Origin: Patescibacteria group bacterium | GTDB taxonomy: Bacteria > Patescibacteriota > Doudnabacteria > UBA920 | Direction of reading: 5' to 3' | Length of the DNA stretch: 34,082 nucleotides | NCBI GenBank assembly: GCA_013387205.1 | Contig: WARV01000017.1 | Coordinates: 1-34,082, forward strand | In this document: positions 29,885 to 34,082 of the stretch, piece by piece | Layout: each line of letters begins with the position of its first letter | Numbering within the stretch: position 1 is the stretch's first letter | The notes under the pieces: generated by a model | What the model was told of the DNA's origin: nothing | Databases searched by the model: none | The model's input: the letters and a program-made list of their open reading frames with translations, nothing else | Program-made: the position numbers and the translations under genes

Positions 29885-32800
29885 TTAATCTTTAAGTTCG
29901 ATATTATTGCCTAGATCATCTTTTAACATATTTCCACTCTGATCTTTAAAAGTAAAAGTATTTTTTGACAAATCTTTTACGCCAGAAAACTTCTGCAGTA
30001 AAATTCTCGCAGCATCTTTATCTATTTCCCACATCATTTTCACATTCTTTGCAAAATTAGGATTACTAAGCCTAATTTCTAAATCAGTTTTTCCAGCCTT
30101 AATATCTTCCTTGATTTTCTTTGAATTTTTCGCAACTTCATCATCAGACGCGCTAGCATGGCCCGTAATTAAAAAGTTTGCCATTCTTTCCTGTACAAAA
30201 CCAGGGTTATCTTTTACACCTTTTGCCCAAACGGCAAAAATAGCTTTGCTGAAATTCTGGCCATCGGAACTAACCAAAGAATGCCAGGCTATCTGCGCTG
30301 ACCTTCGTCCTTCAAACTTGGCAAGCTCCGAAGCTGCCATCCTCTTTTCACCGTCACTGACCCACATAACTTTACCCGTAACATCATCTTTAACTTTCCT
30401 TAAAGCATAAGCAGCATAATGTCCAGTACCAGGTTCTGTTTCCATGTCGGTCATAAACTGCAAATGTCCGGTAGATTTTGCTTCGCTTTCTCCTTCTTGG
30501 GTAATCAACCTTGCTGCGGCATGATCTTTGATACTATAAGTTTCTTCCACGGCTTCATCTGCAGCATTCCTCTTATCTCCAGTATATCGTTCCCCTGTTG
30601 CGCTATCAACGTATGTTCGAGTCAATTTACCGCCAAACATAGCTAACTGGAAAGCTCTTCTGGTTGAATGGCTGTTAGGTACAAGGCCAACCTCACTGCG
30701 ATCAACAGATGTAACCGTTCCGGTTATCATATCTTTCTCAGAAAAAGTTCCGTCAGGATTTTGGATAATCTTATTGCCATTATTCTTATTGACTAAATCA
30801 GAAGTATCATAATCGTCTGTATGCAGCCATTTATTTTTTAGCATTTTATCAATCACAAACTGCCCTTCTTTGGTATTACTGGTTTCTCCCACCGCATCGT
30901 CAATATAACCCTTGCTCATGGCAAGTTTGTAACTTCCTCTCTTGTATGCCATATCTTCTTCAGTATCCCCCATCATGGCAATCTGATGGATTCTCCTGGC
31001 AACTTCAGCACGCGACAAGTTCTGTAATTTCTTTGCCTGCTCGTCTTCTTCTTCCTTTTCATGCTGCAACACATGAGGGTTTATTTTATAACTGCCTTTA
31101 AAGATAGCCCGTGGAGAAGAAAAGCGCTGCTCTGCCATTTCCAAACCAGTAGACTCAGCTTTTGCCTGTGCCCTGTGAATTCTTTCCTCTGATTGTTTTT
31201 TCATCCCCTTAATAAAAGATTTTGGATTCAATACAGCGAAAGCCGCGGCCCTACCAAAACTAACCTTTTCTTCATGGCCTCTAATTTTAGAGGACGATGT
31301 CCACTCGTTCCATTTCCTGCCTACATAATGTTCCCCGACTTTCGCCAGTCCACCAGCTGCACCAAACGGGGCAAAAACGCCTTTTTGGGCGATGTCGGAG
31401 ATGGCATGGGCGCCGAAGATTCCCATCTGGTCGGCGACTTTAATGGCAGCTATCAAAAATACCAAAATTAGAATATTGCTGGCGACTTTTACCACAAAAT
31501 TTGCTAAATCGGAACCGCCAATGGATGAAGGGTCGCCGACTAATGTTTTTAATACCGGATTATCTTTCTGCACGCTAAGCATCACAGCTGTGATATTTAA
31601 AAAGAATGCCATTATGGGAGTAAAAAACGCATACTTGATAAAATTACTCCACCACACGCTGCGGTATTTAGCGGTAACCGGCAAAACTCCGGCCACGTAA
31701 GCAATCGGTGAAATAAGCAGCAGCACCCACAAAGCCACAATCCTAATTACCAAATATGCGGCAACCGCACCAAACACCAGAAAGCTTCCCAAAGACAGCC
31801 CTAAGAAGAATAGCGGCTGGATAGTGTTGGCAAAATCACCCTGGCTGGCAAAATCCACGTTATAAACCACGCTGCGGTATCCGACCATCAAATCTTTCGC
31901 CAACGCGCGTATGACTTCCACGTTGTTAGGCAAAAACTGGCTTTGGATGGTATCTGCCAAACCCAAAATCGCTTGGGCAATAACCAAGCTGAAATTTACC
32001 AAAAGCGCGGCAATAATCAACTGGACCAAAAGATGCTTATACTGGTAACTCTCTATCCTAAACAAAGTACCAAGACCAATTGCAATTATGGAAATAATAA
32101 ATAAAATATTGCAGATATTCCTGACAATAATCCATCCCGGATATATAATTCCTACGAACGTATCCGTATAAGTCCTAACAGAAAGCATAGCCTGGATTAT
32201 CGGGGCGATAAGCCAATAAAACACCAAAAATATAAATTCCTGGATGAGCCCGAGCAAACCGCCAATAACCTGGTTGATAAACCCTAGAACCGGGCTTCCT
32301 TGCCCCGCAACCTGCGCGTTGCCAGTCCTGCTTCCGTACGCAGGAGCGCCGCCCCTATCGTTATTTGAAACCGCAGTATTTAAGGAAGCTTGGTCGTTAA
32401 AATATTGCACATACATGTATGTGGATGCGTTGGTAAATGTAATGTTCTTTTGGGTAAAGGATCCCGCTATATCCAAATCCATGTACGGATAAATTGCAAA
32501 ACATGACGCTGTTATACTAGCGCCTTTATTGTCGCTACATGGACGGGATTTTGTTAAGGCGTCAACTTGGGAAGCGCTTAAATTAAAAGTTTGGGAGTAA
32601 CCCTGTCCAGCAGATACGTTATTTGGCTTGGCAAGATAATCTTTTTTTACACCACCAGTATCAAAAGGGCAATACGCAAAGGTCTGTGAACCGACAATAT
32701 TAGTTATTCCTGCCGTTTTACAAGAATTTTCACTACCAACAATATCCAATCCCGCCCCAAAGCTTAAAATCGGCCTATTGGCAAAAACCGTAGCTTTTGT

Positions 32801-33079
32801 ATCAAGAGTATCTGTCCCCAAAACAATTCCCGAAGGCGGACTAACCAGTTTTAATGTTACCTGGAAAGTCGCCCCTTGCCCTTTAACCACTCTGATTAAA
32901 TTATCATTACTGCCTCCCACGGACATACTAGTTTCCACAGATACATTTTCCGCCGGGAAAGATGCAGCTTTGGCTCTGCTAAACATTAAAAAACTGCCTA
33001 CGGATGACAAAACGAAGGCAATAAAAAGCAAATACGCTCTTATTTTACTATAGTTTTTTGTTTTTAGTTTCTTGAACAA
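29885..33079 (-). CDS. VirB6/TrbL-like T4SS polytopic membrane protein with long cytoplasmic C-terminal region
   Basis: Signal/TM, beta-rich extracytoplasmic N-terminal region, then a cluster of hydrophobic helices (FIFLVFYWLIAPIIQAML...; RIVALWVLLLISPIAYVAGVLPVT) typical of TrbL/VirB6, and about 450 aa soluble tail. Confidence 0.8.
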   Translation of the reverse strand: MFKKLKTKNYSKIRAYLLFIAFVLSSVGSFLMFSRAKAASFPAENVSVETSMSVGGSNDNLIRVVKGQGATFQVTLKLVSPPSGIVLGTDTLDTKATVFANRPILSFGAGLDIVGSENSCKTAGITNIVGSQTFAYCPFDTGGVKKDYLAKPNNVSAGQGYSQTFNLSASQVDALTKSRPCSDNKGASITASCFAIYPYMDLDIAGSFTQKNITFTNASTYMYVQYFNDQASLNTAVSNNDRGGAPAYGSRTGNAQVAGQGSPVLGFINQVIGGLLGLIQEFIFLVFYWLIAPIIQAMLSVRTYTDTFVGIIYPGWIIVRNICNILFIISIIAIGLGTLFRIESYQYKHLLVQLIIAALLVNFSLVIAQAILGLADTIQSQFLPNNVEVIRALAKDLMVGYRSVVYNVDFASQGDFANTIQPLFFLGLSLGSFLVFGAVAAYLVIRIVALWVLLLISPIAYVAGVLPVTAKYRSVWWSNFIKYAFFTPIMAFFLNITAVMLSVQKDNPVLKTLVGDPSSIGGSDLANFVVKVASNILILVFLIAAIKVADQMGIFGAHAISDIAQKGVFAPFGAAGGLAKVGEHYVGRKWNEWTSSSKIRGHEEKVSFGRAAAFAVLNPKSFIKGMKKQSEERIHRAQAKAESTGLEMAEQRFSSPRAIFKGSYKINPHVLQHEKEEEDEQAKKLQNLSRAEVARRIHQIAMMGDTEEDMAYKRGSYKLAMSKGYIDDAVGETSNTKEGQFVIDKMLKNKWLHTDDYDTSDLVNKNNGNKIIQNPDGTFSEKDMITGTVTSVDRSEVGLVPNSHSTRRAFQLAMFGGKLTRTYVDSATGERYTGDKRNAADEAVEETYSIKDHAAARLITQEGESEAKSTGHLQFMTDMETEPGTGHYAAYALRKVKDDVTGKVMWVSDGEKRMAASELAKFEGRRSAQIAWHSLVSSDGQNFSKAIFAVWAKGVKDNPGFVQERMANFLITGHASASDDEVAKNSKKIKEDIKAGKTDLEIRLSNPNFAKNVKMMWEIDKDAARILLQKFSGVKDLSKNTFTFKDQSGNMLKDDLGNNIELKD

Positions 33080-33292: not shown

Positions 33293-33330
33293 ATTCCTCG
33301 ATATTTCACGGCCGTGAAATATCGAGGAAT
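33293..33330. repeat. 38-bp perfect palindrome 1
   Basis: ATTCCTCGATATTTCACGG|CCGTGAAATATCGAGGAAT, no spacer. Confidence 0.97.
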
Positions 33331-33384
33331 AAAACATCAAGTATAAAACTTAAACACACGGCCACATCCAGCCTTAATATTTCC

Positions 33385-33422
33385 ATTCCTCGTTTTATCA
33401 CGGCCGTGATAAAACGAGGAAT
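33385..33422. repeat. 38-bp perfect palindrome 2
   Basis: ATTCCTCGTTTTATCACGG|CCGTGATAAAACGAGGAAT, no spacer. Confidence 0.97.
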
Positions 33423-33455: not shown

Positions 33456-34016
33456 CTATTTCAACCCGAAGTGCTTTTTTAAATCAATATCATTATCCAT
33501 TTCTTCAACTTTCATAATTCTGATGTACTTAATAAGGCCGCTTTCATTTAAATAGCTAATCGCTTCCCTATTAAAAGGATATGGATTTATAAAAACGCTT
33601 GCTTGAAGTTTTTTAAATCCGGATGTTTTAAGCATCTTTCGTAATACGTCCCGTCTACCCCTAGCTTCCTCCGGGATATCAAAAGTTACCACCCTCCACT
33701 TTCCGTCCCAATTTTCCAACACCTTAACTTTTGCTTTAATGAATAATGTTTCAAGGAGCCCGGGTTTTGTTAATTCAATATATTGATTTTTGGTTACCTT
33801 GTCTTTATAAATTTTTATTAAACCTTTTTTCTCCAAATAATTTATCGCATTCAGGTAACTATGGTAAGAAACACCCTGGCCTGAAAAGGTACGCCTAAAA
33901 TACGATGTTTTTGATTCAAACGGCCTGGGCATTAAATCCACCGCGGCAAAAATAAAAAGCAAGATTTTTGCCGGGATAGTCAAATCCCTTTCTTGCTCTT
34001 TCTTCCTTCTTTTCAT
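33456..34016 (-). CDS. PaaX-like transcriptional regulator (wHTH plus Cas2-like C-terminal domain)
   Basis: N-terminal winged-helix-like region (GVSYHSYLNAINYLEKKGLIKIYKDK), then WRVVTFDIPEEARGRRDVLRKMLKTSGFKKLQASVFINPYPF as in PaaX-C/Cas2-like domains. Confidence 0.8.
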   Translation of the reverse strand: MKRRKKEQERDLTIPAKILLFIFAAVDLMPRPFESKTSYFRRTFSGQGVSYHSYLNAINYLEKKGLIKIYKDKVTKNQYIELTKPGLLETLFIKAKVKVLENWDGKWRVVTFDIPEEARGRRDVLRKMLKTSGFKKLQASVFINPYPFNREAISYLNESGLIKYIRIMKVEEMDNDIDLKKHFGLK

Positions 34017-34082
34017 AAATTTTGATTTTAGTAATAAATTCTAAAATCATTATTACTCATATTTTCACGGCCGTCAATTTTT

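Follow-up and report, generated by a model that had tools for sequence, protein, structure and literature searches.

The window, the whole stretch of 34,082 nucleotides analysed here, is contig C9 of a Doudnabacteria genome of 1.30 Mb in 24 contigs. The Doudnabacteria are a group of tiny uncultured bacteria. Towards its end the window carries a PaaX-like gene and three palindromes (Table 1). Direct inspection of the sequence confirmed what the earlier note had described: two of these are perfect 38-bp palindromes with centres 92 bp apart, and three of the five arm positions differ between them, each change being compensated on the other arm. ATTCCTCGTTTTATCACGGCCGTGATAAAACGAGGAAT is the downstream copy of the PaaX-like gene, 34 bp past its stop codon. 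The core of the third copy, TCACGGCCGTCA (34065-34076), lies 49 bp upstream of the start codon. The contig ends 6 bp past this core, so assembly may break at such repeats, in which case palindrome copy numbers are possibly underestimated. A 1064-residue open reading frame with many membrane segments (29885-33079), perhaps a secretion-type membrane protein, adjoins the palindromes.

Table 1. Palindromes, gene and promoter-like element at the end of the window.
Feature	Position	Strand	Description
Palindrome ATTCCTCGATATTTCACGGCCGTGAAATATCGAGGAAT	33293-33330	.	Perfect, loopless, 38 bp; TCACGGCCGTGA core class; spacer ATATT
Palindrome ATTCCTCGTTTTATCACGGCCGTGATAAAACGAGGAAT	33385-33422	.	Perfect, loopless, 38 bp; spacer TTTTA
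PaaX-like gene	33456-34016	-	186-residue winged-helix and Cas2-like protein (PaaX_M, PF20803)
Promoter-like element TTGACG-17-AATAAT	34049-34077	-	-35 box inside upstream palindrome
Third, upstream palindrome copy	34058-34082	.	Imperfect, cut by contig end

Chance does not account for such palindromes. With up to two mismatches, the TCACGGCCGTGA core has five occurrences in the window, where 0.72 would be expected, and loopless palindromes with a half-length score of at least 12 number 70 in 598 kb of the genome (some of them ordinary terminators) against none in five Markov shuffles. Nor did one copy arise by duplication of its surroundings, as the earlier note had allowed: the palindrome at 33293 recurs unchanged on contig C3 (27132-27169), and the flanks of the two copies match at 6/30 and 9/30 positions, the level of chance, which excludes a segmental duplication. 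Neither window palindrome has a U-tract or was called terminator-like, in keeping with the view that they are poor terminators, and the class as a whole was rejected as terminators on these grounds.

The protein family and its palindromes

The 186-residue protein has an N-terminal winged helix followed by a Cas2-like domain. Its Pfam matches are PaaX_M and CRISPR_Cas2, with no Y1_Tnp among them. The PaaX_M match (PF20803, 2.9e-21) scores 75.8 bits against a gathering score of 24, and the Cas2 model TIGR01573 scores 28.7 bits against a cut-off of 24.5 over residues 107-143 only (about 37 residues). The PaaX equivalog model TIGR02277 gives 37.5 bits, below its cut-off of 264.55, and the C-terminal PaaX domain is missing. 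An AlphaFold2 model built with 63 homologs (pLDDT 87) found E. coli PaaX as its best solved structural match (PDB 8a39, E=1e-4), followed by Cas2 structures; a search of the PDB by sequence gave no match. Conservation across 42 Doudnabacteria-type sequences lies in the Cas2-like domain, the winged helix being highly variable. W103, D104, R108, D113, P115, E116, R122, R126, L129, Q138 and S140 are invariant, but D113 is also a general residue of the PaaX/Cas2 fold, so its invariance does not establish catalysis.

The genome encodes nine paralogs, eight of them close (175-190 residues) and one distant, and the genes neighbouring those we looked at are unrelated. The distant one, of 163 residues (L029:1405-1896, on C13), has its stop codon within a 40-bp palindrome with core GCTTAAGC; weakly matching homologs like it occur in many genomes of the family, some of which lack the palindromes. 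A PADLOC scan for defence systems returned only Cas2 models, and alignment found no homolog in IMG/VR contigs; a defence system and viral carriage were rejected accordingly.

Each close paralog adjoins its own palindrome class (TCACGGCCGTGA, TTGACGGCCGTCAA, GAGCGATCGCTC, GAGCGGCCGCTC and TAACGGCCGTTA), often on both sides. The link to a PaaX-like gene drawn in the earlier note therefore stands as a matched gene-palindrome system, but was too narrow, as there are eight close paralogs with classes of their own. Under strict palindrome thresholds, and among the 38 Doudnabacteria-type genes with enough flanking sequence, a palindrome of at least 26 bp lies upstream of 19, downstream of 27 and on both sides of 16; for control ORFs at the same loci the figures are 1/100, 5/100 and 0/100. 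More distant homologs give 5/57, 13/57 and 4/57 (controls 0/141, 3/141 and 0/141), and detectable palindromes are missing at most distant homologs.

We ran a covariance model trained on 40 palindromes, whose E-values are rough, on 60 relatives. Palindrome number followed gene number (Spearman 0.86 over the 60 relatives, 0.92 within the family), and at least two model sites were present in 18 of the 19 genomes with a strong gene against 1 of the 41 without (Fisher 4e-13). A forward test used matches in families left out of model building. Two matches in G199, 608 bp apart, enclose a homolog (E=5e-33). G145 likewise has a homolog with a match on each side, plus two solitary copies of that class elsewhere, and one match in G030 is close to a homolog; most other far matches had no homolog within 1-3 kb. 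Protein distance and site distance correlate weakly (Mantel r 0.14) and N-terminal variation does not strongly track the core (Mantel p=0.70); the outer block alone correlates with it, weakly. At one locus, orthologous genes of congeners carry different classes (ACGTGGCCACGT in G021, TTCTCGGCCGAGAA in G018, TTCACGGCCGTGAA in G017), and in each case the two flanking copies agree.

Further copies, sought in the genome and its relatives, were found: the family comprises about 35 sites in this genome, 1-18 in each of the other positive genomes of the family, and many more among relatives taken together. The dispersed palindromes are loopless and 30-58 bp long. They are not always beside PaaX-like genes, a point that the earlier note had proposed to check. 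In the 598 kb sampled, where a simple ORF rule served to call genes, 13 of them flank such genes, another 11 stand alone between genes and 5 fall within ORFs, one of which is perhaps spurious.

Other repeats are present as well. For two more classes of multi-copy loopless palindrome no cognate gene was recognised: CAACCGTACGGTTG (C11:25691, C22:36063, C22:10602) and CACTACTTCGAAGTAGTG (C17:26212, C17:36319, C17:36860, C16:38381). A repeat of about 113 bp beginning ACTAAATACTAAAAGGTACTAAAT, at C11:24452-24564 and about 11 other places (C2, C4, C6, C8, C17, C19, C20, C23), is MITE-like, partly self-complementary and 84-89% identical between copies; its 35-bp ends also occur in G004, G014, G018 and G020. 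Intrinsic terminators of this clade are themselves often loopless perfect palindromes (for example C2:32388 and C11:44764; L257, L262 and L264 in relatives), a form that may reflect a template-switch mutation bias.

Site anatomy and promoter overlap

Comparing the upstream with the downstream palindrome of 25 genes gave the anatomy of the half-site. Conservation covers positions 1-5 and 13-16, numbered outward from the centre, and positions 6-11 vary. A site thus has two conserved parts, the core and an outer block, and between them a free spacer of 4-6 bp that is usually symmetric. The arm covariation that the earlier note proposed to look for is there: 61 of the 86 differing positions are altered on both arms, a symmetry that is partly ascertainment, since palindromes with at most three mismatches were chosen, and that also appears when sites are selected by core only. 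The exact TCACGGCCGTGA core occurs at 13 sites genome-wide, all 13 within longer perfect palindromes (12 with a half-length of at least 13) whose arms vary from site to site. As these sites were picked by core and not by symmetry, the symmetry of their differing arms is a real property, and the suggestion that symmetry persists while arms drift holds. Exceptions, in which an asymmetric spacer lies between conserved ends and core, are mostly upstream copies. The idea of nuclease or transposase sites with fixed ends and a fixed core survives in part: both elements are conserved, but they differ between paralogs and genomes, so there is no single end motif.

In upstream copies the core is often a -35 box, followed after 17 bp by a -10 box. 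Such a pair accompanies 11/31 upstream and 2/37 downstream palindromes, and 6/66 orientations of solitary ones. This overlap suggests that the gene may regulate itself. It also bears on whether the palindromes act as RNA, as hairpins or terminators at mRNA 3' ends, perhaps cut or bound by a Cas2-like RNase. Cas2-like domains do include RNases, and many copies lie 6-60 bp after genes. Upstream copies that overlap the -35 box would, however, not be transcribed from that promoter, an Rfam search matched the palindromes to no known RNA family, and the missing U-tract and terminator calls point the same way; we regard an RNA-level role as very improbable.

The chief rival to a mobile system is that the proteins are ordinary autorepressors, the palindromes their operators and the solitary copies a small regulon. 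The best solved structural match, E. coli PaaX, is a repressor, the upstream palindrome covers the -35 box in 11/31 genes, and each gene has few solitary sites, a few of which (C11:17310 and C11:24909) lie on promoter-like sequence. The placement of most solitary sites fits less well. In the 598 kb sampled none of the 11 is in a divergent intergenic region (the flanking genes are oriented ++ in seven cases, -- in three, +- in one and -+ in none), they are often within 60 bp of a gene 3' end, and they seldom overlap promoters. Plain operators alone do not account for the copies inside tsaD, miaA, prmC and mutM, described below. Nor does this reading explain why a downstream copy lies directly beyond the stop codon or why the unread spacer is symmetric, and exact copying that includes the free spacer indicates a duplicated unit. 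The earlier suggestion of operators for a symmetric dimer is thus upheld in so far as gene and palindrome are matched and the upstream copy lies on a promoter, but leaves in-gene and exact dispersed copies unaccounted for. We consider the repressor-operator reading unlikely as a whole; it nevertheless keeps a substantial share, because autoregulation, unlike catalysis, is well supported.

Dispersed copies and copies inside genes

Identical palindromes occur in unrelated places. Besides the window copy and its C3 counterpart, C3:40195 equals C11:24893, and there are identical pairs in G009, G011 and G017 and an identical triplet in G008. Identity between dispersed copies includes the spacer and stops at the palindrome edge, with no shared sequence found beyond it. 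As the copies share nothing outside, the palindrome itself is the dispersing unit, and as the free spacer is copied too, the identity is not the product of convergent selection on a binding site.

Some copies lie in frame within housekeeping genes, and their classes are specific to the genome. In tsaD of three genomes one and the same loop is lengthened by about 14 codons of palindrome, with three different sequences and offsets that are not all equal; most other genomes have a clean 45-nt empty loop. A palindrome is present in miaA of three genomes and in prmC of one. Seven genomes have one at an identical codon position of mutM; two of the seven have two extra codons, and the others show no net change of length. 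Several further genomes have a decayed CGGCCG core there. Here coding sequence has been overwritten by a palindrome at constant length, unlike a simple insertion, and no target-site duplication was found. A palindrome in the 3' flank of the RNase J gene is lineage-specific, in intergenic DNA too diverged to give insertion borders. These genomes are metagenome assemblies compared at species level or beyond, and it is from this comparison that we infer movement of the palindromes.

The mutM copies can match the class of their own genome (ATTATGTTTTTTCACGG against the element GGATTATGTTTTTTCACGG in G008, and ACTAGCATTATGCGCGG against ACTAGCATAGTGCGCGG in G020). More generally, solitary sites resemble the gene-flanking sites of their own genome: across 35 of them the similarity was 9.86, whereas the null gave 8.30 (sd 0.16) and never exceeded 8.83. 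Occupied positions, then, are long-lived, with a sequence that follows the resident protein.

Two other sources of such copies were weighed. One is passive mutation, in which perfect palindromes would arise and be maintained by template switching during replication, wherever inverted repeats occur by chance, and the proteins would merely bind some of them. Template-switch repair of palindromes, which makes perfect hairpins and compensatory changes, is documented (PMC8794818), the genome also holds loopless perfect terminators, and mutM was overwritten at unchanged length. This would leave unexplained the link between gene presence and palindromes, the genome-specific outer blocks and the identical copies at unrelated places, and as a full account we find it very improbable; template switching may well be part of the answer, as the source of spacer symmetry. 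The other is mobilisation by a Y1 (HUH) transposase encoded elsewhere in the genome, which would make the palindromes genuine REPs or IS200-type elements. Y1_Tnp genes are found in 14 of the 22 family genomes, with three matches in this one. Their distribution does not follow that of the palindromes, however: G004, G006, G011 and G015 have palindromes without a Y1_Tnp match, and G002 and G016 have Y1_Tnp without palindromes. With no GTAG-like head seen and unrelated flanks, a Y1 transposase is disfavoured as the mobiliser, to the point of being scarcely credible.

Proposed system and its relation to known ones

It seems probable, at roughly 0.6, that the palindromes and the winged-helix and Cas2-like proteins form a REP/RAYT-like system that relies on an unrelated protein. 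It looks like a counterpart of REP/RAYT in Doudnabacteria that has not been reported before. Low copy number, the weak Mantel correlation, the lack of target-site duplications, the overwriting at constant length in mutM and the scarcity of palindromes at distant homologs count against this reading. We infer that the protein causes both the dispersal and the overwriting. The winged helices of a protein dimer would recognise the two outer blocks and its Cas2-like centre the core, and binding to the upstream copy would repress the gene. The protein would also cut or exchange strands at palindromes, copying a palindrome to new places, and the same strand activity would overwrite old copies with the resident class. 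Spacer symmetry would be kept by a folded hairpin during copying or repair (template-switch correction), the spacer itself not being read.

More speculatively, a Cas2-like fold joined to a fast-evolving winged helix might, without Cas1, copy and homogenise palindromes through hairpin intermediates. Such an enzyme could conceivably represent a new kind of DNA-mobilising protein, and the symmetry of the palindromes would then be the mark left by its mechanism. Whether a Cas2-like domain can move or convert DNA without Cas1 is the question that this raises. If the REP/RAYT-like reading is right, the arrangement evolved a second time, independently, in an uncultured group whose mobile elements are poorly known, and palindromes that change class with the resident protein, even in tsaD, miaA and mutM, would clearly exemplify concerted evolution of protein and site.

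The results suggest that in Patescibacteria the PaaX-like genes do not encode phenylacetate regulators. PaaX repressors (TIGR02277, PDB 8a39) share the winged helix, the Cas2-like middle domain and the upstream promoter site, but here the C-terminal PaaX domain is absent, each genome has many paralogs and the sites disperse. The FDIP motif with Asp113 is retained, as in Cas2; unlike Cas2, the Cas2-like domain is fused to a winged helix, matches the model over a short stretch and is accompanied by palindromes instead of a CRISPR array. In the open-access literature searched, no paper was found that linked palindromes to PaaX or Cas2, and none that connected PaaX to the Candidate Phyla Radiation. 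Rickettsia palindromic elements also lie in frame inside housekeeping genes; they are longer than the palindromes described here, and we know of no cognate gene for them.

The closest likeness is to REP/RAYT (TnpA-REP) systems and REPINs; REP/RAYT repeats are extragenic and usually number more than 100. Here there are tens of copies, not hundreds, and some lie in frame within coding genes. The palindromes are loopless and without a bulge, with no GTAG- or GGAG-type head beside the hairpin and no shared sequence beyond the palindrome edges, and the protein lacks a Y1/HUH domain. The co-evolution of repeat with gene, a REP/RAYT trait, is seen here in the correlation of gene and site and in own-genome similarity, with a weak protein-site Mantel result. 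In REP/RAYT the gene is flanked by two repeat copies (PMC2817692), as are 16 of the 38 genes here against none of the 100 control ORFs. The two systems share the palindrome-gene-palindrome layout, solitary copies, gene-specific classes that co-evolve, compensated arm changes and orthologous genes in the same context (PMC2817692).
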